This document shows positions 4,453 through 25,439 of a stretch of 29,510 nucleotides of DNA, one piece after another. Within the stretch, counting starts at the first letter, position 1. Each line of letters opens with the position of its first letter. The stretch is taken from the IMG/VR virus record IMGVR_UViG_3300044535_000424, positions 1-29,510 of that record; one strand, written 5' to 3'. Source of the stretch: a virus. The position numbers and the translations under genes are program-made. The notes below the pieces were generated by a model. It searched no databases. It saw only the letters and a program-made list of their open reading frames with translations, and was not told the origin of the DNA.

Positions 4453-4476
4453 AACCCAAAAAAGCCGATTTGTTAC
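4453..4476 (-). promoter_or_regulatory. Candidate phage-type promoter (GTAACAA ... GTTTTATT) for the tail block
   Basis: The coding strand reads GTAACAA, 14 nt, then GTTTTATT; the first G is 34 nt before the ATG of the chaperone-like gene. It begins one base after the T-tract of the preceding terminator. No TAnnTTTG box is present here. One of five similarly placed motifs in the window. Confidence 0.5.
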
Positions 4477-4477
4477 G

Positions 4478-4500
4478 AAAAAAGGGGCTTTAATGCCCCC
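4478..4500 (-). terminator. Intrinsic terminator after the small-gene cassette
   Basis: The minus strand carries GGGGC, a six-base loop, GCCCC and then six T. The hairpin starts within the stop codon of the 4500..4748 gene and closes the cassette that begins at 5300. Confidence 0.8.
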
Positions 4501-4748
4501 TAAAAGATTGAATGGTCGCCGAAAGTGTCAGTGTCGACATACTTGTTAAATAAATCAACTATTTTATTGTGGGCCTCAATTATAACCCTATGGGCGTTGC
4601 CAGTGCCGTAGTATATGTCTTCTTTTAATGTCTCAAGAATATATATGGCCTCTTCTCTGATTTTCTCGTCGCAGTCATTAAAGTGGCTTTCAACAAACTC
4701 CTCAAGTTCATAAAGGTCGTGAGATGGGCAATTGTCTTCGTTTAGCAT
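4500..4748 (-). CDS. Small acidic protein of unknown function, 82 aa
   Basis: This is an acidic, probably all-helical protein of 82 residues (many Glu and Asp; two Cys near residues 7 and 26). It has no recognised domain, membrane segment or signal. Its start overlaps the end of the upstream gene by 7 nt. It is the last gene of a four-gene unit bounded by the promoter at 5323..5353 and the terminator at 4478..4500. I do not recognise it. Confidence 0.65.
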   Translation of the reverse strand: MLNEDNCPSHDLYELEEFVESHFNDCDEKIREEAIYILETLKEDIYYGTGNAHRVIIEAHNKIVDLFNKYVDTDTFGDHSIF

Positions 4749-4963
4749 ATCTTATTTATTTCTTTTTTAACTTGTTGCCAGTATTTAATTCTATCAAGGG
4801 AAGTATCACCATTATTATGGTAAAATGTATCCAAAAGCGTCTCTTCAACAAATATCAAAGCACATTCTTTTGATTCTGAAATACTAATTGAATTTTCTAA
4901 ATCAACAAGGAATAAGTCATAATATTTATAAACTAATTGTTTTGCCTTTTCTTTAGGTGTCAT
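4742..4963 (-). CDS. Small protein of unknown function, 73 aa
   Basis: The product has 73 residues with alternating charged and aromatic positions and a likely helical fold (AKQLVYKYYDLFLVDLENSI region). No membrane segment is seen. The start ATG at 4963 overlaps the stop of the 33-residue membrane peptide gene as ATGA, so the two are probably translationally coupled. The function is unknown. It belongs to the small-gene cassette between the terminase and tail blocks. Confidence 0.65.
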   Translation of the reverse strand: MTPKEKAKQLVYKYYDLFLVDLENSISISESKECALIFVEETLLDTFYHNNGDTSLDRIKYWQQVKKEINKIC

Positions 4964-5061
4964 AGTCTTTCAATTATAGCGATTAAAGTGCCAAGTGCCA
5001 ATGCCGTAATCATAATGGCATTAAATAGGTGCAAAGCGATGTTTTTTAATAGGTTTTTCAT
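4960..5061 (-). CDS. Very small membrane peptide, 33 aa
   Basis: The frame runs from ATG at 5061 to TGA at 4960. After a short basic start (MKNLLKN) residues 7-30 are one hydrophobic segment (IMITALALGTLIAII), so a single-pass inner-membrane peptide is likely. Both ends make ATGA overlaps: with the stop of the 5058..5300 gene and with the start of the 4742..4963 gene. This is strong support for a real gene despite its length. Possible roles are a lysis regulator, superinfection exclusion or another membrane function; none can be chosen from sequence. Confidence 0.65.
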   Translation of the reverse strand: MKNLLKNIALHLFNAIMITALALGTLIAIIERL

Positions 5062-5300
5062 ATTACTGTAATTGATTGGATTTTCTCTGCAAAGGTTTTG
5101 GTTGATTCATCCATTGCGTGAACCATCCAAGATTCTAAAAAGTTATTGTAGGCTTTTTTAGTCATATTTGAGGCCTCAATGATAAATCTAAACGCTTCAG
5201 TTGGGTGCATCATAAAAGTGATGGTGTCATTCTCGCACACATAAGTGTAAACGCTTTGATTGTCTTTTTTAGTTTCGTTTGTTAAAGCAAATTTTTTCAT
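5058..5300 (-). CDS. Small protein of unknown function, 80 aa
   Basis: This is the first gene of the cassette, behind the promoter at 5323..5353. The 80-residue product begins MKKFALTNETKKDN, continues with a short beta-like section (YTYVCENDTITFMM) and then helices. No domain or membrane segment was recognised. The predicted transcription start is near 5316, which leaves a leader of about 15 nt. The stop overlaps the ATG of the membrane peptide as ATGA. Confidence 0.65.
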   Translation of the reverse strand: MKKFALTNETKKDNQSVYTYVCENDTITFMMHPTEAFRFIIEASNMTKKAYNNFLESWMVHAMDESTKTFAEKIQSITVI

Positions 5301-5322
5301 ACTTTTTTCTTATTTGATAGCA

Positions 5323-5353
5323 CAAAGATACAGTCATATTTTGAATTTACAAT
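5323..5353 (-). promoter_or_regulatory. Bacteroidota-type promoter for the small-gene cassette
   Basis: The minus strand reads ATTG (5353..5350), 19 nt, then TATCTTTG (5330..5323), fitting the Bacteroidota -33/-7 consensus with a near-match -33. The surrounding gap 5301..5402 is AT-rich and contains no other feature that I can see. Confidence 0.7.
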
Positions 5354-5402
5354 ACAAATAATGATATTTTTTGTAACTATTTGATTTTTAGGCTAATAAT
5401 TT

Positions 5403-6572
5403 TTATCTGATTGAGTATTTGCCGTAGTTAGGACGATTAAAGCTATTGAATATTGCATACCTGGAGGCGTCAATGCCGTGGTTAAAAGCATCCACTGGCC
5501 TATTAGTTGCCTTCCCATCTTTGTCCTGAATGTATTTGTAGTTTCTAAACTCCTTAATAAGATTGGTTGATCGTGTAGTAATATGTATCTTGTACCTTCG
5601 CATCATATCAATACCTATATTTATACTATCTGGACCTTTTGCCGTGGGCTTTACATTAAAACCATAGGAATGAATCTCATTGATGGACTTCGGTTCGCTT
5701 GAATCAGCAAATATATTTACTCGCCTATCTATGTTTAGCGACCTCATCACATCCACAATATCCTTATTGGTCATTCCGTTCTGGTAAATATGCTCATCAA
5801 GGTAAATCTTATCGTCATAAAGGTAAACAGAAACCAAGGCCGTTGGATCTTGAGTGTAGCCAAAGTCTAAACCATAGGCAATAAATCGAGCTTCTTGTGG
5901 GATGTTCCCAATCTCCTCATAATTAAATACCAATAGTTTTGACTGTGCCTTTTGGCCAAGCCCATATATACGCCAGTATGTTTCGTCAACTTCCTTAAGC
6001 CGTTCAATCTCAGCTACCAGGTTAGCATCAAGGAATGGATTATCCTTATATGTGGTAACAAAGAACTCGGCATCAGGCCTTGGGATGATATTGTCATAAA
6101 GCCAGTGGTATTCCTCCGATGGATTAAAGTCAATTATTACCTTGTCCGTTGTTCTTATGTTTAGTTGGAAGAAGTCTTCATATTTAAGCTCGTTGCCCTC
6201 ATTAACAAACAGTAAGTGTCTTTTGCGACCTCTAATCTTTTGTGGTTCATCCAAACTTACAAATTCAATGACATTAGAATTAAGATGATATTCGTTTACA
6301 GACTTGTAGTGATCCTCCTCATTATACAAATCATATTTGCGGAGTAACTCAAAAAAGTCCCTCATCACTGACCCACGAAGTGCTGGGCCGTGTTTCCTTA
6401 CAATTGATATTATTTTATTCTGATTGGATAAACAATACTTGAATATAATCCAAATAAGAATGTTGTAAGTCTTCCCAGAACGAGTACCCCCTTGCTCGAC
6501 TGTAAAACGCTTAGTGCTTTGTTCTAAATGAACAAATACACAATTACTCTTCAAGTTTATTGATGACCTCAA
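5403..6572 (-). CDS. terL: Terminase large subunit (ATPase and nuclease)
   Basis: This 389-residue DNA-packaging motor uses ATP to translocate DNA into the prohead and cuts it. The Walker A motif GGTRSGKT is at residues 28-35 and a Walker B-like LLFVNE at 120-125. The C-terminal RNase H-like nuclease shows the expected acidic residues: Asp in YGLDFGYTQD (about 236), in FADSSEP (about 290), and in the final DAFNHGIDASRY (361-372). Length and layout are normal for the small terminase type of Bacteroidota and PBSX-like phages. The start at 6572 overlaps the small terminase end by 29 nt, and no later ATG precedes Walker A. Assignment is secure. Confidence 0.95.
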   Translation of the reverse strand: MRSSINLKSNCVFVHLEQSTKRFTVEQGGTRSGKTYNILIWIIFKYCLSNQNKIISIVRKHGPALRGSVMRDFFELLRKYDLYNEEDHYKSVNEYHLNSNVIEFVSLDEPQKIRGRKRHLLFVNEGNELKYEDFFQLNIRTTDKVIIDFNPSEEYHWLYDNIIPRPDAEFFVTTYKDNPFLDANLVAEIERLKEVDETYWRIYGLGQKAQSKLLVFNYEEIGNIPQEARFIAYGLDFGYTQDPTALVSVYLYDDKIYLDEHIYQNGMTNKDIVDVMRSLNIDRRVNIFADSSEPKSINEIHSYGFNVKPTAKGPDSINIGIDMMRRYKIHITTRSTNLIKEFRNYKYIQDKDGKATNRPVDAFNHGIDASRYAIFNSFNRPNYGKYSIR

Positions 6573-6906
6573 TGTTTATGTCTAAAGCTTTGCCATTCAT
6601 CCCAGTTATTTCCTTGCGTTCAATATAGCCTCTGTCCTTACCTTTAGTTTTGAGCATAAAAATAATAGCCGTTGGATTGCCATCTCTGATAAGCTCAAGC
6701 AATTTTGATTCGGTAAAGTCTAAAACAAGGTTTTGTATCTCGTGAACCTTCTCCGCAAACAACTCATCTTCCCTCATCCATCGGTAAGGTGTTGTCCTAT
6801 CCAAGTCCATTTTTTTGGCAGCCTGGCTTATTATACCAAGTTGACCTTCTAATATTTTTAGGAATGCCTCTTTTCTATCTTCTTGTTGTTTTTGTAGTGC
6901 GTTCAT
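6544..6906 (-). CDS. terS: Terminase small subunit (DNA-binding)
   Basis: This 120-residue protein lies directly upstream of the large terminase. Residues 20-55 contain a homeodomain-like helix-turn-helix (ISQAAKKMDLDRTTPYRWMR) typical of small terminases that recognise the packaging site. A helical middle section and a short C-terminal tail with KDRGYIERKEITG follow, as in related small terminases. The ATG overlaps the stop of the preceding 45-residue gene as ATGA. Context and HTH make the call fairly firm. Confidence 0.85.
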   Translation of the reverse strand: MNALQKQQEDRKEAFLKILEGQLGIISQAAKKMDLDRTTPYRWMREDELFAEKVHEIQNLVLDFTESKLLELIRDGNPTAIIFMLKTKGKDRGYIERKEITGMNGKALDINIEVINKLEE

Positions 6907-7285: not shown

Positions 7286-7365
7286 TCTGAAAATTTGATT
7301 GGGTTAATGTTTTTCTCTTGGAGATAGTCAAGAGTTCTTGTTGTAAGTGGTGTTAATTTTTTCAT
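7210..7365 (-). CDS. Candidate small protein, 51 aa, overlapping the DUF3310 gene
   Basis: The frame runs from ATG at 7365 to TAA at 7210. Its first 29 residues (MKKLTPLTTRTLDYLQEKNI and on) lie outside the DUF3310 gene and look like a sensible helical protein; the rest overlaps that gene in another frame. The start is only 7 nt after the -7 box of the promoter at 7373..7404, so it would be read from a nearly leaderless mRNA. It could be a leader peptide or a short independent protein. Less certain than its neighbours. Confidence 0.4.
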   Translation of the reverse strand: MKKLTPLTTRTLDYLQEKNINPIKFSEWLNYIKTENKARYMTTLIQNTIKH

Positions 7366-7372
7366 ATTGATG

Positions 7373-7404
7373 CAAATATAGTATTTTAATTTTACAATTT
7401 CAAA
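7373..7404 (-). promoter_or_regulatory. Bacteroidota-type promoter for the packaging block
   Basis: The minus strand reads TTTG (7404..7401), 20 nt, then TATATTTG (7380..7373), a full match to the consensus. It overlaps the end of the HNH gene and drives the DUF3310, 45-residue, terS and terL genes. Confidence 0.75.
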
Positions 7405-8325: not shown

Positions 8326-8746
8326 ATTCTTTGTAGATGATTAATAGGTCATTGATCATATCTTGCCAGGCTTTTGGGTTGCAAGTGCAAGGTCTGTAAA
8401 ACTTCCTTGATTGGAATACTCTATTCCATATTGTCGCAATCTCGTCGCCCTCTTGTTTTGTCAAGGTTGTATTGTTTACCTTTTGAAACTCGGTTAAATA
8501 GTTAAACTCATTCTCGGTTAAGCACAAAGGTTGCTTGTAACGGAATAACTTATTAAGCTTCTCTTTACGCTCTTCGCATCCGCAATCCTCACCAGCAATA
8601 AACTTGACTAACTTATCAATCCCAGTCGCTTTGGTTACCTTCGCAATCGTGTCCCCCAAACCTAACGATGGTTGTTCTTGTGTTTCTTGATTCTCGATAT
8701 GCTCGATAATCGTTTTTTGTTTGTTTTTTAAGTTTTTCTTTGGCAT
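8312..8746 (-). CDS. Conserved Cys-containing phage protein, 144 aa
   Basis: The protein begins with a Lys/Gln-rich segment and then shows LGLGDTIAKVTKATGIDKLV, followed by GEDCGCEERKEKLNKLF and a later PCTCNP. The DCGCxxRKxxLNxLF segment and the C-terminal Cys pair suggest a small metal-binding fold and recur in Bacteroidota phages near the sigma-like gene. The first 131 nt overlap the 3' end of the sigma gene in a different frame, an unusually long overlap. Function unknown. Confidence 0.7.
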   Translation of the reverse strand: MPKKNLKNKQKTIIEHIENQETQEQPSLGLGDTIAKVTKATGIDKLVKFIAGEDCGCEERKEKLNKLFRYKQPLCLTENEFNYLTEFQKVNNTTLTKQEGDEIATIWNRVFQSRKFYRPCTCNPKAWQDMINDLLIIYKEYGIN

Positions 8747-9206
8747 TTTTTATAGTATTAAATATTGAATGTACACCTATTCCAGTGCTTTTGGCTATAT
8801 CTCTTAAGCTGCAACCATTTACAAAGTACAATTCAAGGAGCATTTGTTCATATTCTCCGAATCCTTGTATAATTCGTTTAAGTTTATGAATTAAAACCTG
8901 ATATTTTTGCTCTTGATCATCAACTGGCTCAAGCTCGTATTCAAAATTGGTGAAATCCGCCCCGTACTCCTTGCGTTTGTGGAAGTCGTAGTATAGGTTC
9001 TGAATGACTTTAAAAACATAAACAGTATTGATACCTCCAGAATAGTTGACTAACTTCTCAAGGTTGCCTTCTTTAATTTGTAATTCGCCTATTTTTAAGT
9101 ACATCTGTTGCACAATTTCCTTTGCCGTCGCTGAATCCGCCCCTAAATAGTTCGCTATTTTAAGCCATTCTTTGTGCTTATTGGCAAAGTCTTGAAGCGT
9201 TAACAT
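8616..9206 (-). CDS. ECF-like RNA polymerase sigma factor
   Basis: This 196-residue protein has two helical domains. Residues 10-75 resemble sigma region 2 (WLKIANYLGADSATAKEIVQ, then QMYLKIG, like the VQExxL core). Residues 118-160 are a region 4 helix-turn-helix (LELYFVNGCSLRDIAKSTG, then VHSIFNTIKNAKEKL). No region 1.1 or 3 is present, which is the ECF layout. It probably redirects host RNA polymerase. The window contains five matching candidate promoters (GTAACAA-N13/14-GTT or GTA), mostly before structural genes, which is what an ECF-type factor would use. The final 36 residues overlap the next gene and may be dispensable. Confidence 0.75.
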   Translation of the reverse strand: MLTLQDFANKHKEWLKIANYLGADSATAKEIVQQMYLKIGELQIKEGNLEKLVNYSGGINTVYVFKVIQNLYYDFHKRKEYGADFTNFEYELEPVDDQEQKYQVLIHKLKRIIQGFGEYEQMLLELYFVNGCSLRDIAKSTGIGVHSIFNTIKNAKEKLKKQTKNDYRAYRESRNTRTTIVRFGGHDCEGNQSDWD

Positions 9207-9547
9207 AGGTATTCTTTTATTTTGGCCTCAAAGTCTTCAAATGAATAGCAAACAATGTACTTAAATCCGTTATCCTCGACATCCTTTTGCCATTCCTTTT
9301 GAGTATCTGTCTGTTTATTTGGCTTGATTTTCATTTCAATGCACAAACCGTGATAGTTTTCTGTTGGTTTTAATAGGACTAAATCAGCCACCCCAGACAA
9401 AACACCCTCGGCTTTTAATATTTTAGCAGTTATTAAAGACCTACGACCACCATTAGGCACTGCAAAAAGCAATCGTGCAAGTTTAGGGTAGTTAAACCTA
9501 AACCACTTGACGCACATTATCTGCAATTTGCTTTCCTCGTGTTTCAT
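9200..9547 (-). CDS. VRR-NUC nuclease
   Basis: The 115-residue product starts at ATG 9547, chosen because it makes an ATGA overlap with the upstream 34-residue gene; an ATG 18 nt earlier also exists. It shows the small VRR-NUC layout: an N-terminal Glu in MKHEESKLQ, the basic FAVPNGG loop, GVADLVLL with its Asp at about 55, the EMK catalytic pair (71-73), and QKEWQ (83-87). Such nucleases act on branched or flapped DNA and are common in phage replication modules. The stop overlaps the sigma factor start by 7 nt. Confidence 0.85.
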   Translation of the reverse strand: MKHEESKLQIMCVKWFRFNYPKLARLLFAVPNGGRRSLITAKILKAEGVLSGVADLVLLKPTENYHGLCIEMKIKPNKQTDTQKEWQKDVEDNGFKYIVCYSFEDFEAKIKEYLC

Positions 9548-9648
9548 AAACTTGCCCAAACACAAAGTGCGAGTAACCCAAGAATTCCAAGTATAAAAAA
9601 TATGATGGCTTGTATTAATTGATATTTTTGGTCTTCTTCGTTATACAT
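9544..9648 (-). CDS. Very small membrane peptide, 34 aa
   Basis: The frame runs from ATG at 9648 to TGA at 9544. A polar start (MYNEEDQKYQ) is followed by about 22 hydrophobic residues (LIQAIIFFILGILGLLALC), so a single membrane pass is likely. The start overlaps the end of the upstream gene by 8 nt and the stop overlaps the VRR-NUC start as ATGA. Too short for a domain call; function unknown. Confidence 0.6.
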   Translation of the reverse strand: MYNEEDQKYQLIQAIIFFILGILGLLALCVWASL

Positions 9649-9925
9649 AGCCTAATTCTTTTTTGCGTTTGTCTTGTGCTGATGTTTGTCTATTCATCCA
9701 ATTAGCCCCCCTTAAGTCAGGCCTCATTTGTTGAAGTTGCCTTCTTGCTCGGCTTACTGATTCAAAAGACGGAATGGTTTTGTTCTTCATTGCCTTGAGT
9801 AATTCAAGTGCAGTGATGTTCTGGGCATCGTAAAGCTTTAAGATTTGATTATAAAGGTAATAATCACAGTCCCTTGTGTGTTTTTGATACATCAAAATGT
9901 CCTCTATTGTTTCGTTTATTTTCAT
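9641..9925 (-). CDS. Phage protein of unknown function, 94 aa
   Basis: The product has 94 residues. The segment FESVSRARRQLQQMRPDLRG, followed by ANWMNRQ, resembles a small family often found next to phage nuclease or recombination genes, probably nucleic-acid binding because of its Arg-rich helix. It is the first gene after the weak promoter at 9934..9964 and starts about 8 nt after the -7 box. Function not established. Confidence 0.7.
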   Translation of the reverse strand: MKINETIEDILMYQKHTRDCDYYLYNQILKLYDAQNITALELLKAMKNKTIPSFESVSRARRQLQQMRPDLRGANWMNRQTSAQDKRKKELGYV

Positions 9926-9933
9926 ATCTGAAA

Positions 9934-9964
9934 CAAATGTACATTTAAAATTTTAAATTTAAAA
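9934..9964 (-). promoter_or_regulatory. Weak Bacteroidota-type promoter
   Basis: A good -7 box TACATTTG is at 9941..9934. The matching -33 position (9964..9961) is TTTT rather than TTTG. It would serve 9641..9925 and the sigma factor transcript. Confidence 0.5.
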
Positions 9965-9990
9965 AGGGTTACTTAAAAAATATTCACAAT

Positions 9991-10233: not shown

Positions 10234-11228
10234 TAGTAAATTTCTTTAGTAAAGTAATCAATACGCTTGTTATGCACTCGGTAGTTGCCGTTTTCTTTAA
10301 TCTCAATCATTGCAAATCCCTGGTTGTGTTTTGTGTTAAACGGATCATAATCGGGGGCAAGTTCGCATAAGCATCCAGTTGAATAGGTCGTTGATAGTTC
10401 GTGGTTTAGTATGCTTTCTGAGTGTTCAGATGTGGTATGGCAATGGCCAATTAACATTGATGACTTAATACGGTTATAAACGCCTCTTGCTGGGTTCACT
10501 GGGCTAAAGAATCCCTTTACTATCATATGGCCGTGCGTCATTGGAAGCTTACCAGCCATCAAGATTACATTTTGATCGTGCCAAATGATATTCTTTTCTC
10601 TTAATTTAAGTCTTGAAGATAGTGTGTAATATTCATCGTGAAACAATGCTGGAGCTTTTTTCATTAAGTAACGCTTATACCAGTTGTCGTGGTTGCCTTC
10701 AATCCAGTGAATAGGGCATTTGAAACGGTCATTAAGCATATCCAAAAATTCAGACACCATTTCAAACCATTGGCGAATCTCGGAGTACAATGGAGGCGGT
10801 GCATCGTGGCTTGTAAATGGCTCGTTATCTAAAATATCCCCACCTAAAACAATGCAGTCAATATTATTATCTAAACCAAACTGCAAAGCAGCCGTTAAAG
10901 CTTCATTGTCTTGGTTTGGGAAGTGTATATCCGAAAGCCAAAGCACTCTTGTCGCACCTTCAATCTTTACAAACTTGCGGACATTGGCCCTTGATTCTGG
11001 CAAACCAAATGGGTTCTCCCTTGATTGAATCCTTTCTGTTTTAATCGGGTTTTTAAGCTTTGACCATCTCCCAGAATGTTGGCTTAAGATTGTCCGAGCT
11101 GCACTATAATTTGTAAATAGTGTTGGATAGTGCTCCATAAGTAACTGTGCTAAAGTCCTTATGGATGATTGAGGATATTTAGCCAAATACTCTCTGACTA
11201 TTAACCCTTTTTTGCTGATTTGCCCCAT
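10233..11228 (-). CDS. Calcineurin-like metallophosphoesterase with N-terminal HTH-like region
   Basis: This 331-residue protein carries the full metallophosphoesterase set: LSDIHFP (Asp100, His102), GGDILDN (129-135), GNHD (178-181), MTHGH and GHCHT. Such enzymes hydrolyse phosphodiesters or phosphomonoesters with two metal ions. Residues 1-60 precede the catalytic domain and look like a helical HTH-type domain (VREYLAKYPQSSIRTLAQLL, then SAARTILSQHSGRW). That arrangement suggests a DNA- or RNA-directed phosphoesterase, but the substrate is unknown. A GTAACAA-type promoter candidate precedes it (11238..11261). Confidence 0.85.
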   Translation of the reverse strand: MGQISKKGLIVREYLAKYPQSSIRTLAQLLMEHYPTLFTNYSAARTILSQHSGRWSKLKNPIKTERIQSRENPFGLPESRANVRKFVKIEGATRVLWLSDIHFPNQDNEALTAALQFGLDNNIDCIVLGGDILDNEPFTSHDAPPPLYSEIRQWFEMVSEFLDMLNDRFKCPIHWIEGNHDNWYKRYLMKKAPALFHDEYYTLSSRLKLREKNIIWHDQNVILMAGKLPMTHGHMIVKGFFSPVNPARGVYNRIKSSMLIGHCHTTSEHSESILNHELSTTYSTGCLCELAPDYDPFNTKHNQGFAMIEIKENGNYRVHNKRIDYFTKEIY

Positions 11229-11237: not shown

Positions 11238-11261
11238 AACGCATCTTTACGATTTTGTTAC
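11238..11261 (-). promoter_or_regulatory. Candidate phage-type promoter (GTAACAA ... GTTCTATG) for the phosphoesterase
   Basis: The minus strand reads GTAACAA at 11261, 14 nt, then GTTCTATG. The first G is 33 nt before the ATG, as in the other four copies. It overlaps the methyltransferase stop codon. Confidence 0.4.
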
Positions 11262-12244
11262 TTTATGTAACTAAATATGTGAGCTATTACATCAACTGTC
11301 CATCCATTGCCAAGCATCTTATATCGTTGAGAATCAGAAACATAAGCCGTATATCCATCTTTAACAGTTTGAAGCCTTTCACATTCTGTTGGAGTTAATT
11401 TTCTAATATTATCGTTATATTCAATAGCATTTGTATGCCCAGTATCTAAACAATATGTTTTGCCATCATCTCTTGTTAAATGACCAGTTCCACCTTTCCC
11501 AGATGTGCTTGATCGTGGCATCATATTATGTACAATTATATCTGAATCAGAATTGCTTAAACTTTTAAAATGATTTGTTTTAATTGTATTTAAATAGTAC
11601 TTGTCATCAACTTCAGTTTCCAAAACATCCTTCAAAAGTATCCCTTTGTCTTTAGGTTGTTCAATTATGCTTTGTAAATCTCCAAACAATCCGCCAGGTA
11701 TCATTCCTATATTTGTCCAATAAAGCCTTTGTCTATTTTGAGCAGATACCAAACTTGAGTTTATCATAATAGGATTAACGCCTATTGCTTTGCTTAAAAC
11801 CTTCTCCCATTTTTCACCCATCATTACATTCTCAAGTAAAAATAGTACATTAGGATTTTTCTCTCTTAACTCACCAAGTAATCGCATATACTCCCAAAAC
11901 AAATACGACTGACCTTCAAACTCAAATCCTTCAGCTTTTAATTGCAAATAGTGATCAAGTGTCAAGATTTCTTGTTCATCTTTGGTCGACATACCCTTAC
12001 GCTTACCTGCAAATGAGAATGATTGGCAAGGAGAACCACCAATTAACAAATCAATCTTTGGTAAAGCTCTTCCATCAACATTTACAACCGAACCTAATTG
12101 TACTGTATTTGGATAGTTTGCCATAGTAACTTGAATCGCAAACTTATCAATCTCGGATGCAAAATATTCATCCACTTTAATTCCTTGTCGTTCCAAAGCT
12201 TGTTGGCCACAAGACATTCCGTCAAATAAACTTAATACTTTCAT
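11258..12244 (-). CDS. C5 cytosine DNA methyltransferase
   Basis: Ordered motifs are all present in the 328-residue protein: motif I VLSLFDGMSCGQQAL (3-17), motif IV GGSPCQSFSF with nucleophile Cys73, motif VI LLENV (about 137-140), motif VIII QNRQRLYW (169-176), motif IX RKLTPTECERLQ and motif X GNGWTVDVIAHI. The target-recognition part between VIII and IX is about 100 residues. ATG at 12244 is preferred because it overlaps the upstream stop as ATGA. No partner restriction gene is visible, so this is a solitary methyltransferase, probably protecting phage DNA from host restriction. The recognised site cannot be read from sequence. Confidence 0.93.
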   Translation of the reverse strand: MKVLSLFDGMSCGQQALERQGIKVDEYFASEIDKFAIQVTMANYPNTVQLGSVVNVDGRALPKIDLLIGGSPCQSFSFAGKRKGMSTKDEQEILTLDHYLQLKAEGFEFEGQSYLFWEYMRLLGELREKNPNVLFLLENVMMGEKWEKVLSKAIGVNPIMINSSLVSAQNRQRLYWTNIGMIPGGLFGDLQSIIEQPKDKGILLKDVLETEVDDKYYLNTIKTNHFKSLSNSDSDIIVHNMMPRSSTSGKGGTGHLTRDDGKTYCLDTGHTNAIEYNDNIRKLTPTECERLQTVKDGYTAYVSDSQRYKMLGNGWTVDVIAHIFSYIK

Positions 12245-12426
12245 TTTGGTAAACAATCAAATCCTAAACTTTTAATAACTTCAACTTTTAATACTTTCAC
12301 TGGTTCTTTAAAGTATCTTTTGCGAGTGAAATACCCATCAGTGTGTTTATACACGACATCTTTAACCCACTTTGGCCCTTTGTCCGTTTGGACAAGTAAA
12401 TTAGCTCTGAATATTTCTGTTGGCAT
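12241..12426 (-). CDS. Small basic protein of unknown function, 61 aa
   Basis: I start this at ATG 12426 (MPTEIFRANLLVQTDKGPKW) because the upstream 11 residues of the longer frame are hydrophobic and lie inside the preceding gene. The 61-residue product is Lys-rich and beta-like. It overlaps the preceding gene by 26 nt and couples to the methyltransferase by ATGA. Function unknown. Confidence 0.6.
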   Translation of the reverse strand: MPTEIFRANLLVQTDKGPKWVKDVVYKHTDGYFTRKRYFKEPVKVLKVEVIKSLGFDCLPK

Positions 12427-13779: not shown

Positions 13780-13833
13780 AAATAAAAACCCCACTCAAAA
13801 TTGAATAGGTCAAGTATCCAAAATTGAATGGGG
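13780..13833 (-). terminator. Leader hairpin plus T-tract directly before the initiator ATG (possible attenuator)
   Basis: In the minus-strand RNA CCCCATTCAA (13833..13824) can pair with TTGAGTGGGG (13798..13789), ten pairs including one G-U. A 25-nt loop lies between. TTTTTATTT and then the ATG follow at once. The position between promoter and gene suggests attenuation or control of translation rather than plain termination. Confidence 0.55.
13796..13829. repeat. Two 11-bp direct repeats in the initiator leader
   Basis: CAAAATTGAAT occurs at 13796..13806 and 13819..13829, 23 bp apart (about two helical turns). This is suitable for an operator, though the copies also form part of the leader hairpin. 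Confidence 0.5.
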
Positions 13834-13879
13834 CAGTATTTTTAAAAATTAAGTTCATCATTCTTGACCAATGATATTG

Positions 13880-13910
13880 CAAATATAAAGTTTGTTTTGT
13901 AATTTCCAAA
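13880..13910 (-). promoter_or_regulatory. Bacteroidota-type promoter for the replication block
   Basis: The minus strand reads TTTG (13910..13907), 19 nt, TATATTTG (13887..13880), a full consensus match. Transcription should start near 13873, leaving a leader of about 95 nt before 13779. Confidence 0.8.
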
Positions 13911-13917
13911 TATTAAT

Positions 13918-13940
13918 AGTATTTTCGCAATACTTTTTTC
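13918..13940. repeat. Inverted repeat directly upstream of the replication promoter
   Basis: AGTATT, five bases, AATACT. On the plus strand it is followed by a T run, so it could be a plus-strand terminator; as DNA it could be an operator just upstream of the -33 box. Confidence 0.4.
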
Positions 13941-13957
13941 ATATCTGACGGGATTAG

Positions 13958-13976
13958 GGGGCTATTGCCCCTTTTT
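13958..13976 (+). terminator. GC hairpin with T-tract reading on the plus strand
   Basis: GGGGC, TATT, GCCCC, then TTTTT on the plus strand. It overlaps the stop codon of the 13962..14390 gene. No plus-strand gene feeds into it; it may stop antisense transcription or simply end the minus-strand mRNA as a bare hairpin. Confidence 0.4.
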
Positions 13977-15351: not shown

Positions 15352-15636
15352 TTATTTTGTAATTTTCCAAAACATAGTTGGCGGATAGTTCATATTTTTC
15401 TTAATGGTTTTGTATTGGCCAAGGTAACCCCAAACTAATCCACCGTATTGCTTTTGTGAATAGATGATTGGTATGCCATTACGCATTCGCATCTCCTCAA
15501 ACTTGTTGACGAATCGAGGGCCATCACCAAACTCACTCCACCAAAAAAGATAGTCGCCCTTTTTTAGTTTCATAAATTCAATAACATCATCCTCGGTGTA
15601 TTGCATTACTGTCGGCAAGTGTTCTGTGATTACCAT
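15352..15636 (-). CDS. Unknown early protein, 94 aa
   Basis: A 94-residue aromatic-rich protein (DYLFWWSEFGDGPRFVNKF, VWGYLGQY). It starts inside the last bases of the upstream gene (7 nt overlap). The pattern is reminiscent of small beta-barrel or host-takeover proteins of phages, but I cannot assign a family. Confidence 0.6.
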   Translation of the reverse strand: MVITEHLPTVMQYTEDDVIEFMKLKKGDYLFWWSEFGDGPRFVNKFEEMRMRNGIPIIYSQKQYGGLVWGYLGQYKTIKKNMNYPPTMFWKITK

Positions 15637-15863
15637 AGGTTTATTTTTAAAATTGAATCACCATACTTTTTTTGTGCAACCAACATACCCATAATGATTT
15701 CAAATTTGTAATGCTTCTTTTGTTGCAAGGCCCACACGAATAGGTGTTCGTAGTGCATTGAAATTGTAACCACATTACCAACGGCCTCAATAGGCAATCT
15801 TGTTTTGATTCGATAGAGTTGCTCAAATCTCTTGGCAAGTCTAAAAAGTTCTATTGTTTTCAT
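15630..15863 (-). CDS. First early gene, unknown function, 77 aa
   Basis: This is the first gene after the strong early promoter at 15874..15904; the ATG at 15863 is about 10 nt from the -7 box, so the mRNA would have almost no leader. The 77-residue product begins MKTIELFRLAKRFEQLYRIK and is mixed helical and beta. Function unknown; its place makes it a candidate host-takeover or regulatory protein. Confidence 0.65.
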   Translation of the reverse strand: MKTIELFRLAKRFEQLYRIKTRLPIEAVGNVVTISMHYEHLFVWALQQKKHYKFEIIMGMLVAQKKYGDSILKINLW

Positions 15864-15873: not shown

Positions 15874-15904
15874 CAAAGGTACTATTTAGAATTGTAAAAA
15901 CAAA
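15874..15904 (-). promoter_or_regulatory. Strong Bacteroidota-type early promoter
   Basis: The minus strand reads TTTG (15904..15901), 19 nt, TACCTTTG (15881..15874), a full consensus match. It lies between the end of the lysis block and the first early gene. The rest of the gap (15905..15945) is A/T-rich and shows no clear terminator. Confidence 0.8.
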
Positions 15905-19181: not shown

Positions 19182-19454
19182 TTAGATATTGTACATTATT
19201 ACTGAACCACTCGTCAAGGTAATTGAGCTAATATATGTACCATCAGGCACACAAATAAACGCTCCTTGCTTTAAGGTTACTCCGCTTAATCCTAAAGATG
19301 TCATCAAAGATGCACTTGCTTGATCAAGAATTGCCGATACAACCGCATCAGCGTTAACCACAAAACCTCTAAATGTGCCAGTGTTTGCACTTGTATTTGA
19401 AACGACTTTACAACCAGTGTATCCAGCCGAGAATGATGTTGCACTTATACTCAT
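19182..19454 (-). CDS. Small tail-associated protein, 90 aa
   Basis: The 90-residue beta-rich protein contains TFRGFVVNADAVVSAI and GAFICVPDGTYISSITLTSG, features of small structural proteins found just before receptor-binding genes, possibly a fibre attachment or trimming protein. It is the first gene after the GTAACAA-type promoter at 19463..19486 and ends 2 nt before the receptor-binding gene. Confidence 0.65.
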   Translation of the reverse strand: MSISATSFSAGYTGCKVVSNTSANTGTFRGFVVNADAVVSAILDQASASLMTSLGLSGVTLKQGAFICVPDGTYISSITLTSGSVIMYNI

Positions 19455-19462: not shown

Positions 19463-19486
19463 TACTTTTATTTTGTAAATTGTTAC
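19463..19486 (-). promoter_or_regulatory. Candidate phage-type promoter (GTAACAA ... GTATTATA) for the receptor-binding/lysis operon
   Basis: The minus strand reads GTAACAA at 19486, 14 nt, GTATTATA; the second box is GTA rather than GTT. The first G lies 32 nt before the ATG at 19454. Confidence 0.45.
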
Positions 19487-19487
19487 A

Positions 19488-20874: not shown

Positions 20875-20875
20875 C

Positions 20876-22795
20876 TTATTTATTCTTTAAGCTTCCTCTG
20901 TTTGGTAGGTCAATTGTTTTAGTGCTTGCCGTATCCCAGCTTGGTGGTGCAAATGGCACACCTTCTCTGTTTGCAGTTGCATCGGATACCTTCTCATAGT
21001 TTCTTAAGTCCCTTTCGTCGCTATTTTTCTCACTTGAAGTTAGTGGCTTTATCTTCCCACCTTCTGTTTTGCGTCTATAAGTTACTCTATACCAAGCGTG
21101 ATGGCAATAAACTCCACCTTTAAATTTCCAGATACTATAATTGCTTGATCCCTCTGGGGCAAATTGACCGTTCACTCCATTAAAACTCATTATATTTATA
21201 TCTTCACGACGATAAACAACCCCTTTTTTTGATAAGTTGGTCATTTCTTTGCAGAACTTTCTTGAGTTTTTAGTCACTCTATCTGGGCCATACTTGTAGC
21301 GTATCTTAAAAATCCCAGTATCGTCTTTAGACTTCATATCTGGGTTATCGTATCCAAATTCGAAATGATCATCCTCATCGTTTGCCTCTTGGATGTCTAT
21401 AATTTCCCACTCGTTTAGGTCAACCTCCTCGCCTTTATCTTGCAAGAAAGCTAACCAGGCGTTCTCATCGTCCTCGGTCATCTTTGGTTTATCACTCCCC
21501 TCAAAATAAGAATAGCAAATTGCAGCTGCTTGTTCTTTGTCTTTACCTTCAGCAATAACAGTTGGGATGCAACGAGCTAAAAAATCATCTTTGCTCTCAC
21601 CACTTTTTTTTTGAACCATTTCAACTTTTGAGAAGCCGTATTCCTTCTCTTTGGTTGTAGTGTCAATGGCCACTCCGCTTAAATCAACGAACTCTAAAGG
21701 TTGCAAAGTCTTAAAGTATATATCAACCATTACTTCATTCTTTAAAAGCACCTTATTAAAGCCGTCAATCAATAGATTCTGGAATGGTCTGATAACAATA
21801 TTGTCAAATAAGATAGATGCAGTTTTTAACTCTTCAGCATTGCTTGAGAATCCGTTGCCACTATTTTTAACACCGAATAATAAAGGGCTGGTGATTCTAT
21901 GAGCTAACAAAATTTTATCAATACATTCTGTACTTAAAAATTGGTATTGATCAGCAGCATCGCTTAAAGCAACTGGAGTGATATCCGCTGCAGAATCTTT
22001 ACTCTCGTTAAATGATACGATTGCCCTGCCAGTGTTTGAACTCCCGCCAAATTTAGCATTGATTTGAGCTTCGATTGCATCTTTAATTTCTTCACTTGGT
22101 TCACCGTTGTTGAAGTTGATCAACATTGACGGAGCTAAACCGTTCTTAATATTGTTTAGATGGTAGTTGCTTATTTCACCTTCAAGCTCACAATATTGAG
22201 TGCCACCTTGATAGTCTGGTGGTGCAAAATAAAAGTTACCAGTTGAATAAGGCTTGATTACAAGCATACATTCTTTAGCACTTTCATCATATCCAAACGC
22301 TGCGAACTCTTTTGGCTTTTGGCCCTTCTTTAATTTTGACCAATCAGCACAATAGTACCATTTTTCAATTTCGCCCTTGTCATTGGCTTTCTGTGGTCTT
22401 AAAGTTTGCATTGGGAAGTGGTATGCCCTCACATACTTTTTGCCGTCTTTAGACTTTACAATTTGGAATGCACACATACCAAGCATCGTTAAATCCATTG
22501 TACACTTTTTAACCTCTTCATTTTGGAAGATGGTTTTGAAATCCAAGTATCCCTTTAAATGACGATCGGCTTTTACAACCTCTGGGCCATAGCCGTAAAT
22601 CATATCGGCTTTACCTTTGATACAAGCGTTGTTTGTAGGTGAGCTATAATACAAATCTATCAAATATTGATAGTAGTTATTGTCAGCACCGTATTCAACC
22701 CAATCTTTATTTGTTTGCTCAACAATAGATGGACTTGTATAACCAGCCATATTGATGATGTGGTAAGATGGAATATTTTTTTTGCGTGTAGCCAT
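20876..22795 (-). CDS. Portal protein with extra C-terminal domain
   Basis: This is a 639-residue protein. Residues 1-390 match a PBSX-like portal: NNACIKGKADMIYGYGPEV near the start, SNYHLNNIKNGLAPSMLINF, and the HRITSPLLFG helix region. Then comes a short segment with FLARCIPTVIAEGKDKEQAA and AICYSYF (about 403-428). A C-terminal domain of about 140 residues follows (KIRYKYGPDRVTKNSRKFCK, INIMSFNGVNGQFAP, WKFKGGVYCHHAWYRVTY), which resembles MuF/minor-head-type modules. Portal and a minor-head domain thus seem fused. The portal is the DNA entry ring of the capsid. Confidence 0.85.
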   Translation of the reverse strand: MATRKKNIPSYHIINMAGYTSPSIVEQTNKDWVEYGADNNYYQYLIDLYYSSPTNNACIKGKADMIYGYGPEVVKADRHLKGYLDFKTIFQNEEVKKCTMDLTMLGMCAFQIVKSKDGKKYVRAYHFPMQTLRPQKANDKGEIEKWYYCADWSKLKKGQKPKEFAAFGYDESAKECMLVIKPYSTGNFYFAPPDYQGGTQYCELEGEISNYHLNNIKNGLAPSMLINFNNGEPSEEIKDAIEAQINAKFGGSSNTGRAIVSFNESKDSAADITPVALSDAADQYQFLSTECIDKILLAHRITSPLLFGVKNSGNGFSSNAEELKTASILFDNIVIRPFQNLLIDGFNKVLLKNEVMVDIYFKTLQPLEFVDLSGVAIDTTTKEKEYGFSKVEMVQKKSGESKDDFLARCIPTVIAEGKDKEQAAAICYSYFEGSDKPKMTEDDENAWLAFLQDKGEEVDLNEWEIIDIQEANDEDDHFEFGYDNPDMKSKDDTGIFKIRYKYGPDRVTKNSRKFCKEMTNLSKKGVVYRREDINIMSFNGVNGQFAPEGSSNYSIWKFKGGVYCHHAWYRVTYRRKTEGGKIKPLTSSEKNSDERDLRNYEKVSDATANREGVPFAPPSWDTASTKTIDLPNRGSLKNK

Positions 22796-23139
22796 TATAA
22801 TGTAATCCAGTTTTTACTGTTTGTGTTTGTAGTTGACCAAGACTTCCACTGTCTGTACTCATCAATAGAACCAACGATCCAATAAGCTAGGTATTCAAAA
22901 TACATCTTGCTCGATTGGATTACTCTAATGTTTAGTTCGTCTAATTGATTAGCCACTGCATTGATGGTGGCAAGTGATGGAAGTGTCAATGTAACTTTAG
23001 TCCCCACTATTGTAGGCGTTACAGTTGTAGTTACTAATGTCTTGGTGGCCTTATGTTCAATTTCAAGTGTTACTGGTAACCCATCAAACGCAATAAGCGG
23101 ATGAAATGCAATTGATGTACTTGAATTATTGATAACCAT
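22795..23139 (-). CDS. Small structural protein of unknown function, 114 aa
   Basis: The 114-residue protein has an N-terminal beta-rich half (IAFHPLIAFDGLPVTLEIEH, VTPTIVGTKVTLTLP) and a helical C-terminal half (MYFEYLAYWIVG). The gene lies between the major tail protein and the portal and shares a TAATG stop-start with the portal gene. It heads the portal operon behind the GTAACAA-type promoter. Probably a virion component. Confidence 0.65.
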   Translation of the reverse strand: MVINNSSTSIAFHPLIAFDGLPVTLEIEHKATKTLVTTTVTPTIVGTKVTLTLPSLATINAVANQLDELNIRVIQSSKMYFEYLAYWIVGSIDEYRQWKSWSTTNTNSKNWITL

Positions 23140-23148
23140 ATTTAATAA

Positions 23149-23172
23149 AACCTAAAGGCCTCATTTTGTTAC
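23149..23172 (-). promoter_or_regulatory. Candidate phage-type promoter (GTAACAA ... GTTTTATT) for the portal operon
   Basis: The minus strand reads GTAACAA at 23172, 14 nt, GTTTTATT. The first G is 33 nt before the ATG at 23139. The second box is identical to that of the 4453..4476 copy, and both follow directly after a terminator. Confidence 0.5.
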
Positions 23173-23175
23173 AAT

Positions 23176-23198
23176 AAAAAAGGGGCATCTCTGCCCCC
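23176..23198 (-). terminator. Intrinsic terminator after the major tail protein gene
   Basis: GGGGCA, loop GAGA, TGCCCC and six T on the minus strand, 25 nt after the stop of 23223..23780. Confidence 0.85.
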
Positions 23199-23222
23199 TT
23201 CTCACCTATGTACACTTATTAA

Positions 23223-23780
23223 TTATGGAGTTGTATCTGGAGTAAAGATAGTTGACAAGCCAGCGTAAGTTACTGCTGCCAACGGTCTTGGGCCATACTT
23301 CTCGGAAGCAATAAAGCTCAAAGTATAAGTACGAGCATCACCAAGTAAAGTTCCCCAATCTTCAGAACCTGTAGTAACATCACAACCAAATTCCTCACCT
23401 AATAACCAAAAATTGTCATTTCTATCCCATACAACCACTCTCCAACGACCAGTTGCTAAAGTTTCAACATCTTTAGTGTCTAACCAAGGAGTTGCTTGTG
23501 ATTTAGGTTTAAATTTAACGGTTAAGTTAGATTCGTGGAAAGTTGTGCCATTGTCTCTTGATGAAGTGATGGTGTCAGTAAAACTGTTTGCACCTTTCAA
23601 TTCCCAAAAGTATCCAGTATCTAAAGTAACACCACCAGATTGAGCGATTTTAGTAACCGCACCTGAAGCGTCAACTGTGATAACATCACTCCAAACGAAT
23701 GGGATTAAAAACATCCCTTGAATACCACCAAGATATTCTTTGCAAGGCTCTAAACGAGCGTCTATTGTATTACAAGCCAT
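23223..23780 (-). CDS. Major tail (tube) protein candidate
   Basis: The 185-residue protein begins MACNTIDARLEPCKEYLGGI, a Cys/Gly-Gly start I associate with tail-tube proteins of Bacteroidota phages. It continues with beta strands (GYFWELKGANSFTDTITSS, NLTVKFKPKSQATPW) and the late GRWRVVVWDRNDNFWLLGEE segment. Single domain, no membrane segment. Tube proteins are made in many copies, which fits its isolation between two strong terminators directly after the capsid gene. The call rests on pattern and position. Confidence 0.7.
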   Translation of the reverse strand: MACNTIDARLEPCKEYLGGIQGMFLIPFVWSDVITVDASGAVTKIAQSGGVTLDTGYFWELKGANSFTDTITSSRDNGTTFHESNLTVKFKPKSQATPWLDTKDVETLATGRWRVVVWDRNDNFWLLGEEFGCDVTTGSEDWGTLLGDARTYTLSFIASEKYGPRPLAAVTYAGLSTIFTPDTTP

Positions 23781-23801
23781 TTTATTTTAATTTGTTTTTA
23801 T

Positions 23802-23827
23802 AAAAAAGGGCGGGTTTTGGCCCACCC
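23802..23827 (-). terminator. Intrinsic terminator after the major capsid gene
   Basis: Minus-strand RNA pairs GGGUGGG with CCCGCCC (seven pairs, one G-U) around CCAAAA, followed by six T. The following gene has no obvious promoter, so it is probably reached by partial read-through. Confidence 0.85.
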
Positions 23828-23853
23828 CTTATTGTTAATGTTTCAGTTAATTA

Positions 23854-24774
23854 TTACGGAGTTACATTGATAACAACTTGTTGAGCTGGGTTAGTTGCAA
23901 TGATACCTCCCGTGAAACGCATTATGGTGCGGACATTCTGAGATCCGTCGATTTTAGATAAATCTATGACAGACACTTCGTTAAAGTCGCTCAATAAACC
24001 TGTGCCAAAGTGTAAATCAGATTTCATACCTAAAATACAGTCGTTATCATTTAAACCTGGACACATTGTTACTGGAATACCTTGGAAGTTCATTGGCTTC
24101 TCACCAACATAGAATTGGAAGTTGTAGTTACCAGCAGACAAAGCAGCTTGGTAAGCTTTCATTGTGCTTGGGCCTACATAGTATTGGTAACCTTCTTTAC
24201 CGTACAATGCAGCTGGAGAGTAATCTAAAGCTTCTTGTAAACGAGCAACAACATTACCTGAAGTTGTAGCACCAGCAAATGGGCGAACGATAGCAGAATT
24301 GTCAATCAAGTATTGAACCATACCACCAGTGTAAAAAGTATTTGATTTCCAGATACCTAATTCAACGGCTTGAGCCACTTCAGCAGCAACTTGAGCTAAT
24401 AAAAATTGCTCGAAAGTAGCTGGTAATTTTTCAAATGCAGAGTAACCAGCTTGAGCAGCTTCCCAAGTAGTTCTTAAATTGTTTTTACACAAAGTTAAGT
24501 TAACTTGTTTTTCAACTGTGGTTAATACATACTCACCTAAAGTGATTGATGAAGTATCAGTGTAATCACAAGTTGCGTTGTCTACGCTGATAGTTTGTTG
24601 CCAGTTACGAATAACTTGCTTGTAAGCAACATTAGGGTGCAAAGTGATTAACTCTTTTGATAAAGTTTCACCACTCAAAAGGGCAGCAGCGATATATTCG
24701 TTGCCAAACTGACCAGCATAAGTATTTGGACTTACAGTCGGGCCAGACAATTTGATGTTTTTTAAATCTTTCAT
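23854..24774 (-). CDS. Major capsid protein (HK97-fold candidate)
   Basis: The 306-residue protein shows an N-terminal arm, a long helical spine-like region (FEQFLLAQVAAEVAQAVELG) and late beta strands with ATNPAQQVVINVTP. The gene lies directly after the protease and scaffold genes and is followed by a strong terminator, as expected for the most highly expressed virion protein. Codon choice looks regular and A/T-ending. HK97 fold is inferred from size, order and helix/strand pattern. Confidence 0.85.
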   Translation of the reverse strand: MKDLKNIKLSGPTVSPNTYAGQFGNEYIAAALLSGETLSKELITLHPNVAYKQVIRNWQQTISVDNATCDYTDTSSITLGEYVLTTVEKQVNLTLCKNNLRTTWEAAQAGYSAFEKLPATFEQFLLAQVAAEVAQAVELGIWKSNTFYTGGMVQYLIDNSAIVRPFAGATTSGNVVARLQEALDYSPAALYGKEGYQYYVGPSTMKAYQAALSAGNYNFQFYVGEKPMNFQGIPVTMCPGLNDNDCILGMKSDLHFGTGLLSDFNEVSVIDLSKIDGSQNVRTIMRFTGGIIATNPAQQVVINVTP

Positions 24775-24789
24775 TTTATTTGGTTTTTT

Positions 24790-25407
24790 TTATTTGAATA
24801 ATTGGTTAAATACTCGGTCAGTAACGGTTTCGTTTCTTTTTTCACCGATTTTAAATTTGATTGAATTTACTGGATTCGCCTCTGGAGAGTGGAATGATCT
24901 TGGAGCTTCCTCAGATGCTAAACGAGATACTAACTCGTCTCTCTCTTCAGTTACACTTGACAATTTCATTTTAAGAGCATTTAACTCTTCTCTGATTTCA
25001 GAAAGCTCAGCAGAAAACTCACTTACTTTAGTTGTAGTTTCAGTTAACTTTTTAGGCTTAGCCATTTCCTCAACGATTTGTTCTTTCATTGGTTCATCTT
25101 GCATTACTTCCTCAATGATTGGCTCTTCCATTACTTCCTCTTCTTTAGTGGAAATTTCCACGATGTAACCTTTATCATCAACTTTTACAATAGTGCCATC
25201 TTCCATAGCGTATTCACCCATTGGAGCTGGGATTTTACCATCTTCAGTAACTACGAAAATAGCACTTCCAACTTCAAAAGATTCAGCGTCAAATGTAGCT
25301 TGACCATCCATTGTTTTCATTGATGCAAGGTTAACTTCAACGGCTGGAGCTTCGGCTTTAATGCCTAAAGCAACCATCACTCTGTTTAATGTTTCGTTTG
25401 CGTTCAT
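24790..25407 (-). CDS. Capsid scaffold-like protein
   Basis: The 205-residue acidic protein has a beta-rich start (GSAIFVVTEDGKIPAPMGEY), a Glu-rich middle with a repeated acidic pattern (EEVMEEPIIEEVMQDEPMKE), and a long coiled-coil (FSAELSEIREELNALKMKL). It ends in a basic tail. This is the usual build of scaffold proteins that guide prohead assembly and are removed by the protease upstream. A GTAACAA-type promoter candidate precedes it. Confidence 0.75.
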   Translation of the reverse strand: MNANETLNRVMVALGIKAEAPAVEVNLASMKTMDGQATFDAESFEVGSAIFVVTEDGKIPAPMGEYAMEDGTIVKVDDKGYIVEISTKEEEVMEEPIIEEVMQDEPMKEQIVEEMAKPKKLTETTTKVSEFSAELSEIREELNALKMKLSSVTEERDELVSRLASEEAPRSFHSPEANPVNSIKFKIGEKRNETVTDRVFNQLFK

Positions 25408-25416
25408 ATTATATAT

Positions 25417-25439
25417 AACTTATTTTTTTTTATTGTTAC
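25417..25439 (-). promoter_or_regulatory. Candidate phage-type promoter (GTAACAA ... GTTATATA) for scaffold and capsid
   Basis: The minus strand reads GTAACAA at 25439, 13 nt, GTTATATA; spacing is one base shorter than in the other copies. The first G is 32 nt before the ATG at 25407. It overlaps the end of the protease gene. Confidence 0.45.

Follow-up and report, generated by a model that had tools for sequence, protein, structure and literature searches.

The stretch of DNA analysed here, hereafter the window, is a virus record of 29,510 bases in IMG/VR (IMGVR_UViG_3300044535_000424, positions 1 to 29,510), whose genes lie mostly on the minus strand and which carries both a gene for a putative sigma factor of the extracytoplasmic function (ECF) type and five short bipartite sites placed at a nearly fixed distance before start codons. 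Pfam and PHROG profiles confirmed matches in the window to a terminase (PF04466), a portal protein (phrog_33693), an XkdF-type protease and a phosphoesterase (PF00149); the labels tail chaperone, scaffold, capsid and receptor-binding protein are those of an earlier, sequence-only reading of this DNA by a model, which had suggested that the five sites are promoters of the phage's own sigma factor. Here, we use the window and related phages to argue that a phage-encoded ECF sigma factor, made early, very likely directs the host core RNA polymerase to late promoters fixed near the ATG, and that the late mRNAs are probably leaderless or nearly so.

The sigma factor gene (8616..9206, minus strand) encodes 196 amino acids (aa), comprising region 2, a flexible linker (residues ~82–94), region 4 and a low-confidence C-terminal tail. 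On its sequence and predicted model the product is identified as an ECF-type sigma factor, having the layout of that group: about 160–200 aa, in which a linker connects region 2 directly to region 4 and there is neither a region 1.1 nor a region 3 domain. The ECF-like regions 2 and 4 that had been recognized by eye are upheld by the sigma70-ECF profile TIGR02937, which spans both (residues 15–162; 42.7 bits, cut-off 42.9) and is matched at E ≤ 0.01 by all 25 members of the sigma family alignment (A2), and by the best structural matches, which are ECF sigma factors. Pfam Sigma70_r4_2 scores 25.0 bits against a cut-off of 25.7, and a profile search of the PDB returned SigW, RpoE, SigE, SigL and other sigma factors at E 0.006–0.033, with a helix-turn-helix (HTH) protein ahead of them at 0.0011. 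The predicted model (mean predicted local distance difference test score, pLDDT, 76.6; predicted template modelling score, pTM, 0.42) consists of two helical domains with a low-confidence linker between them; Foldseek ranks 1–20 are all ECF-type sigma factors, at E 1.1e-3 to 0.025 and none at or below 0.001. Region 4 of the model superposes on region 4 of E. coli sigmaE with -35 DNA (2h27_D) with Z 9.5 and a root-mean-square deviation (rmsd) of 1.5 over 69 residues. The whole-chain rmsd is large (~25) because the domain arrangement differs and, with a pTM of 0.42, the relative placement of the two domains was therefore not used. A tblastn search of 50,697 phage records with the window sigma factor matched Nonlabens phages alone, and a scan of a species-genome collection confirmed no relative of it (118 pattern matches, 0 confirmed), so that there is no prophage or host-genome context to draw on.

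The five sites, P1 to P5, all lie on the minus strand and read GTAACA-N14/15-GT(T/A), 32–34 nucleotides (nt) 5' of an ATG. The sequence-only reading had reported a GTAACAA at each with its first G at that distance, and this proved accurate: the five copies occupy 4470–4476, 11255–11261, 19480–19486, 23166–23172 and 25433–25439, with measured distances of 34, 33, 32, 33 and 32 nt. Their placement in intergenic gaps stands in part: three gaps of at least 20 nt hold GTAACAA whole, and the sites at 11261 and 25439 overlap the 3' end of the upstream gene; the estimate of about eight copies on the coding strand becomes nine, five of which are indeed in position. Finding five or more of these nine minus-strand copies at 32–34 nt before one of 45 listed starts has a probability of ~2.5e-10, calculated post hoc. 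The longer pattern GTAACAA-N13/14-GTTNTAT occurs four times in the window and in none of 100 shuffles, the remaining site (P3) having GTATTATA. Four sites can be written GTAACA-N14/15-GTT and one GTAACA-N15-GTATTATA, all matching ECF promoters at the sequence level in the AAC of the -35 element and the GT of the -10 element. A whole-window scan against a shuffled control, which the earlier reading had proposed, was carried out with a matrix cross-trained on seven sites from two related IMG/VR contigs, G010 and G011, whose sigma proteins are 61% and 59% identical to that of the window. With both strands scanned, the five sites took ranks 1–5 (scores 14.5–23.7; next 14.3), and ten shuffled windows, one strand each, reached maxima of 6.8–14.3. 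Scans for sigma-70-type TTGACA/TATAAT elements were uninformative (77 vs 71.3 and 39 vs 47.7 in shuffles).

The predicted late promoter P1 (4448..4476, minus strand; GTAACA-N15-GTTTTATT) precedes the ATG at 4442 and has orthologous sites with a different spacer in G010 (12311) and G011 (15468). Directly upstream of it lies a terminator-like (intrinsic) hairpin (4482..4501, minus strand), a type of structure that is not enriched over the stretch scanned (4 vs 7.3 in shuffles). P2 (11233..11261, minus strand; GTAACA-N15-GTTCTATG) precedes the ATG at 11228 of the phosphoesterase gene and overlaps the end of gene 11258..12256; it is the weakest case, no phosphoesterase ortholog having been found in G010, G011 or G013. 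The overlapping gene 11258..12256 appears, by eye and from its translation, to encode a protein like a cytosine-C5 DNA methyltransferase. P3 (19458..19486, minus strand; GTAACA-N15-GTATTATA) precedes the ATG at 19454, with an orthologous site CTAACA-N15-GTTTTAAG in contig G013 and a similarly placed GTAACA-N15-GTTTTATA in G041. P4 (23144..23172, minus strand; GTAACA-N15-GTTTTATT) precedes the ATG at 23139, that of the gene preceding the portal gene (20876..22795, minus strand; phrog_33693, E 1e-90), which lies 3' of the site; orthologous sites are found in G010, G011 and G013 and similarly placed ones in G041, G042, G045 and G048. P5 (25412..25439, minus strand; GTAACA-N14-GTTATATA) overlaps the 3' end of gene 25420..26028 and precedes the ATG at 25407 of the scaffold-like gene, with orthologous sites in G010 (20753), G011 (23973), G013 and G017. 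A candidate sixth late promoter (26430..26458, minus strand; GCAACA-N15-ATTTTATT) lies 32 nt before the ATG at 26426, with a predicted leader of 0 nt; it ranks sixth in the cross-trained scan with a score of 14.3, which does not exceed that of the best shuffle, and the similarly placed G010 site was among those used for training. Its -35 element falls inside the coding end of the upstream gene, and it has ATT in the window where the similarly placed sites of G010, G013 and G017 have GTT.

The orthologs, in G010 and G011, of the genes starting at 4442, 25407 and 23139 are each preceded, at exactly 32 nt, by GTAACA-N15-GTTTTAT, and the spacers of these sites are unrelated. Contigs G013 and G017, with sigma identities to the window of 43% and 42%, have NNAACA-N15-GTTT with a C before the GTT at orthologs of the genes after P3, P4 and P5, contig reach permitting. 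In P12024L, an isolated Nonlabens phage whose record lists gp35 (24% identical) as hypothetical and notes a sigma-70 region 2, AAAACA-N16/17-GTTA(A/T)T stands before seven genes in the stricter listing, those at 179, 3031, 5412, 22090, 24771, 26011 and 27612. The -35 element and spacer length follow the sigma clade (GTAACA with 14–15 nt, NNAACA with 15 nt and AAAACA with 16–17 nt). Several phages whose sigma factors are 24–63% identical to that of the window have AACA-N14..17-GTT equally far from the starts of orthologous or comparable genes. The sequence-only reading had made its proposal depend on conservation before homologous genes, and such conservation is found at the orthologs in G010, G011, G013 and G017. 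Motif-bearing phages have recognition helices resembling SIFNTIKNAK, and the sigma-bearing contigs without a positional peak (described below) have mostly lower-scoring sigma factors with the recognition helices YSLYNTY, DSLYHTV and SIKNTIKNG; two phages depart from this, G069 having no peak although its sigma factor scores high, and P12024L having a clear motif although its helix differs. A correspondence between recognition helix and promoter pattern across phages is only suggested by these sequences.

The position of the motif was tested by counting matches to AACA-N12..17-GTT by their distance from candidate starts (a start with two matches counting twice) and comparing the 28–34 nt bin with the expectation from the other distances. 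This bin held 10 matches vs 2.0 expected in the window, G010 and G011 (138 genes), 7 vs 1.2 in G013, G017 and L016 (68 genes), 8 vs 0.5 in P12024L (54 genes, one of them counted twice), 10 vs 1.3 in G030 and G038 (90 genes), 5 vs 0.9 in G020 and 3 vs 0.45 in G026; four unrelated flavobacterial phages used as sigma-less controls, 11b, 6H, FCL-2 and P12002L, gave 1 vs 2.5 (272 genes). Scanned for the identical pattern, 15 further contigs fetched by their portal protein gave 27 vs 6.1 (two starts counted twice); among them, G042, G045, G048 and G049 are individually significant, G041 is borderline and the other ten, including G065 with no sigma match, are not. Contig G049 (61,996 bases) holds two sigma-family matches (E 1e-54 and 5e-18), possibly reflecting two promoter classes in a single phage. 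As k-mer positional enrichment over the redundant loci was swamped by homologous sequence, motifs were instead sought blindly within single genomes; in P12024L, with the window motif not used, this returned ACAA-N14-CGTT ~31 nt before eight genes (43.9 vs a maximum of 16.3 in 20 shuffles), and in G011 the result exceeded all 20 shuffles. What computation establishes is that the motif exists, where it lies, that it is conserved and that it occurs together with this sigma clade.

The portal family to which the window belongs is large: a single collection contains at least 468 related portal loci. To compare portal loci with and without the sigma gene, 32 of 80 were taken, selected on size; a sigma match is present in 14 of the 15 records of at least 20 kb, one of these 14 matches being a contig-end fragment and three carrying a stop, and in 15 of the 32 records of all lengths. 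Matches in G055, G063, G066 and G069 hold one in-frame TGA or TAA. The 17 records without a match, 16 of them shorter than 20 kb, are all possibly fragments, so that no clean comparison of presence and absence within the family is available and the controls are the unrelated flavobacterial phages named above. A comparison of relatives with and without the sigma gene, also suggested by the sequence-only reading, bears it out partially: several sigma-bearing clades have the peak and the four sigma-less controls have none, but many diverged sigma-bearers lack it as well.

The geometry of the sites points to very short leaders. In the solved complex of M. tuberculosis sigmaH, the -35 element GGAAYA lies at -34 to -29 and the -10 element comprises G-11, T-10 and T-9 (PMC6411747). 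The -10 block begins 13, 12, 11, 12 and 12 nt before the ATG at P1 to P5 and, as the GTT of sigmaH promoters occupies -11 to -9, transcription is predicted to start within ~2 nt of the ATG, giving predicted leaders of about 2, 1, 0, 1 and 1 nt. Across the phages the commonest distance from GTT to ATG is 11 nt (27 of 74 rows, unfiltered and including chance matches and near relatives), followed by 14 nt (17 of 74), the latter mostly from one gene in relatives. By this analogy the late mRNAs are probably leaderless or nearly so. The near-absent leader, with GTT 11–13 nt before the ATG, had escaped the sequence-only reading. Leaderless mRNAs make up only 5.5% in F. psychrophilum (PMC9723704), and in F. 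johnsoniae 87% of transcripts with a probable promoter have leaders of more than 10 nt (PMC6847099), which makes the prediction unusual for this host group; for phage transcripts in general, the lack of a leader is described as common (PMC5312081).

A second type of element, the host -7 box TANNTTTG or TAHHTTTG (PMC6847099), is distributed separately. The earlier reading had assigned this box to five gaps other than those with GTAACAA, and it is found in exactly five (at 5330, 7380, 9941, 13887 and 15881), in none of the three GTAACAA-holding gaps of at least 20 nt, nor in the short gap before 11228. All five host-type boxes are on the minus strand: TACATTTG at 9934..9941, before gene 9641..9925, is the proposed promoter of the sigma operon, which would reach the sigma gene via 9200..9565; TACCTTTG at 15874..15881 precedes gene 15630..15863; TATATTTG occurs twice, at 13880..13887 in the gap 13795..13961 and at 7373..7380 in the gap 7286..7399; and TATCTTTG lies at 5323..5330 in the gap 5301..5402. 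In P12024L a host-type box stands before gene 20463, upstream of gp35. TAHHTTTG boxes lie only 12–18 nt before several ATGs (window 9934..9941 and 15874..15881; G010 74 and 4274; G013 9434; P12024L 20463), so that some early mRNAs may have leaders of 0–6 nt; the same bin is filled in the control flavobacterial phages too. From the host-type boxes and the Nonlabens phage relatives we infer a Bacteroidota host.

A host-type box before the sigma operon together with late sites at the phosphoesterase and structural blocks, one of them after a hairpin, fits an order in which the sigma factor is made first and the late blocks are expressed second, and the early and late timing of the sigma factor and its targets would follow this arrangement. 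Early in infection, host RNA polymerase would transcribe the sigma operon from the TACATTTG box; the phage sigma factor would then join the host core enzyme and take it to GTAACA-N14/15-GT(T/A)NTAT before the phosphoesterase and structural blocks, with region 4 reading the -35 AAC and region 2 melting the -10 GTT. Transcription would begin at the ATG or at most ~2 nt from it, and the leaderless or near-leaderless late mRNAs would be translated by hosts of a group in which translation does not depend on Shine-Dalgarno pairing. The binding of the sigma factor to the sites, the timing and the exact start site are what we infer within this scheme. The switch of host polymerase to late genes by a phage sigma factor, as the sequence-only reading had envisaged it, is largely supported by the identity of the sigma factor, the orthologous promoters, P12024L, the controls and the geometry, and is qualified by the many diverged sigma-bearers without the motif. 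It seems that a group of viruses infecting flavobacteria-like bacteria carries its own sigma factor, which would turn on their structural genes. It is also possible, rather than probable, that across this large and mostly uncultured phage family a core-gene ECF sigma factor has evolved jointly with its promoters into a private late system whose starts are fixed on the start codon. In that case virion mRNAs would be systematically leaderless, as would much of the phage's mRNA given the host-type early boxes at about -12, and a host that itself makes leaderless mRNAs only rarely would be exploited by way of leader-independent initiation.

Several results weigh against promoters read by a phage sigma factor. 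GTAACAA alone is not over-represented (11 vs 7.25 expected on both strands, with 12 of 100 shuffles reaching 11), and motif discovery in the window by itself, as the earlier reading had wished to see, failed to single the motif out (7 of 20 shuffles as high). Both are what would speak for chance, that is, for a short AT-rich motif chosen by eye, an explanation that we regard as extremely improbable in the face of the position statistics, the cross-training and the conservation in other phages, and that was rejected on the comparative data. With the window-only blind search not significant, the case rests on those comparative data, in which the blind search was also not significant in G010 (7 of 20 shuffles as high) and borderline in G013 (1 of 20). 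Among the sigma-less controls, P12002L gave a motif, not the one sought here, that outscored every one of its 20 shuffles, and 6H gave one that a single shuffle in 20 reached. In the position test, G035, G031 and G029 had 0, 1 and 1 matches and no peak despite a sigma factor, and no clear peak accompanied the sigma match in G051, G052, G055, G056, G060, G062, G063, G067 and G069; the counts are not independent, close relatives being among the contigs, and some counted matches are chance occurrences in coding sequence. A looser pattern of the window type has no match in 7 of the first 15 sigma-bearing records, of which several are short, nor in any of 23 further ones. P2 is not fully conserved in near relatives (AAAACA in G004, GAAACA in G008), the window spacer of 14/15 nt falls short of the sigmaH optimum of 17 (PMC6411747), and the sigma factor itself scores just below the curated cut-offs of TIGR02937 and Sigma70_r4_2.

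The same sites might be promoters of a host ECF sigma factor rather than of the phage-encoded one, as F. psychrophilum has seven ECF sigma factors and a CGT box in the -10 region of its SM6 promoters (PMC9723704), and CGTT is seen in several phage clades here; this is improbable, given that the positional peak is missing from the four flavobacterial phages without a detectable sigma factor, that the -35 element and spacer vary with the phage sigma clade and that the motif is absent from most relatives whose recognition helices differ. Less credible still, and in our view very improbable, is that the sigma-like protein is an HTH late activator (ArpU/Q-like) acting beside the host primary sigma factor, with GTAACA...GTT as its operator. 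Weak matches to phrog_79 (Q-like) and phrog_36 (transcriptional regulator), Phage_antitermQ in 6 of 25 family members and the partial inverted-repeat look of GTAAC...GTT lend it something, against which the protein has a region 2 besides region 4, the right half is GT(T/A)NTAT and not GTTAC, the host box is missing from the GTAACAA-holding gaps and the GTT is positioned as an ECF -10 element. An operator or repressor site was also judged less likely, its right half being asymmetric and placed like an ECF -10. A further alternative accepts sigma-directed promoters and moves either the transcription start further downstream or the true start codon to a later position, so that the leaders become ordinary. 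In the window, and likewise in G010 and G011, the scaffold-like gene does have another ATG in frame, 30 nt further on, but its protein aligns from residue 1 in both relatives, the GTT-to-ATG distance is nearly constant over clades, and the genes at 23139, 4442 and 11228 have no other start codon within 80 nt of the -35 element, or only a TTG 75–79 nt off (open reading frames of at least 40 aa); ordinary leaders are accordingly unlikely. Phage sigma-directed promoters with starts at or near the ATG are the reading that we prefer.

If this reading is right, it provides a predicted promoter map for the whole phage family, with P12024L as a cultured test case and a natural series of sigma and promoter pairs in which changes in the recognition helix may go with changes in the promoter. 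For a host group with expression signals unlike those of E. coli, it would supply strongly timed promoters, and it would give a system in which to study leaderless translation in non-Shine-Dalgarno bacteria. Phrase searches of one open-licence library, with the papers listed judged by title and the start of the abstract, turned up no description of late promoters driven by a sigma factor in Bacteroidota phages. What is new here is a phage ECF sigma factor common in the portal family and, among the clades nearest the window, putative promoters whose position is tied to the start codon.

Late genes read from bipartite GTAA-type promoters by a phage-encoded sigma factor have a precedent in Salmonella phage 7-11, in which SaPh711_gp47 takes host polymerase to late genes at GTAAtg-(16)-aCTA; eight promoters are given, with primer extension for seven genes and in vitro RNA made by the gp47 holoenzyme (PMC8948821). 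The window resembles this system in its phage sigma factor with a predicted role at late genes and, at the level of sequence, in the GTAA-type -35 element and bipartite sites before structural genes, and differs in having GTT where phage 7-11, a phiEco32-like phage of Salmonella, has the -10 aCTA. The sequence match between the two sigma factors is very weak (hhalign probability 19, E 0.0012, 13% identity), too weak for a call on their relationship, and the term 'leaderless' is absent from the PMC8948821 text. In phiEco32, gp36, called an ECF sigma factor in a note of the 7-11 record, serves middle and late genes with the host core enzyme (PMC8948821, PMC4331800); unlike the window sites, its promoters are single-element, and there is a middle class; it was not among the matches to the window sigma factor in the phage collection, which were Nonlabens phages only. 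Bacterial ECF sigma factors (sigmaH, E. coli sigmaE, SigW) share the region 2, linker and region 4 layout and gave the best structural and PDB-profile matches, and sigmaH promoters share AA(C/T) in the -35 element and GTT at -11 to -9; the window's factor differs in being a phage gene, in the shorter spacer of its clade and in its predicted virion-gene targets. The SM6 promoters of F. psychrophilum are likewise flavobacterial and ECF-type with a conserved CGT box, but drive host genes such as those for type IX secretion (PMC9723704). The Nonlabens phages P12024L and P12024S have a homologous sigma factor (gp35, 24%) and portal (36%), with the protease (42%) in P12024L; P12024L, the one of the two covered by the scan, has the promoter layout of the window before seven genes, with an AAAACA -35 element, a spacer of 16–17 nt and no promoters annotated in its record.

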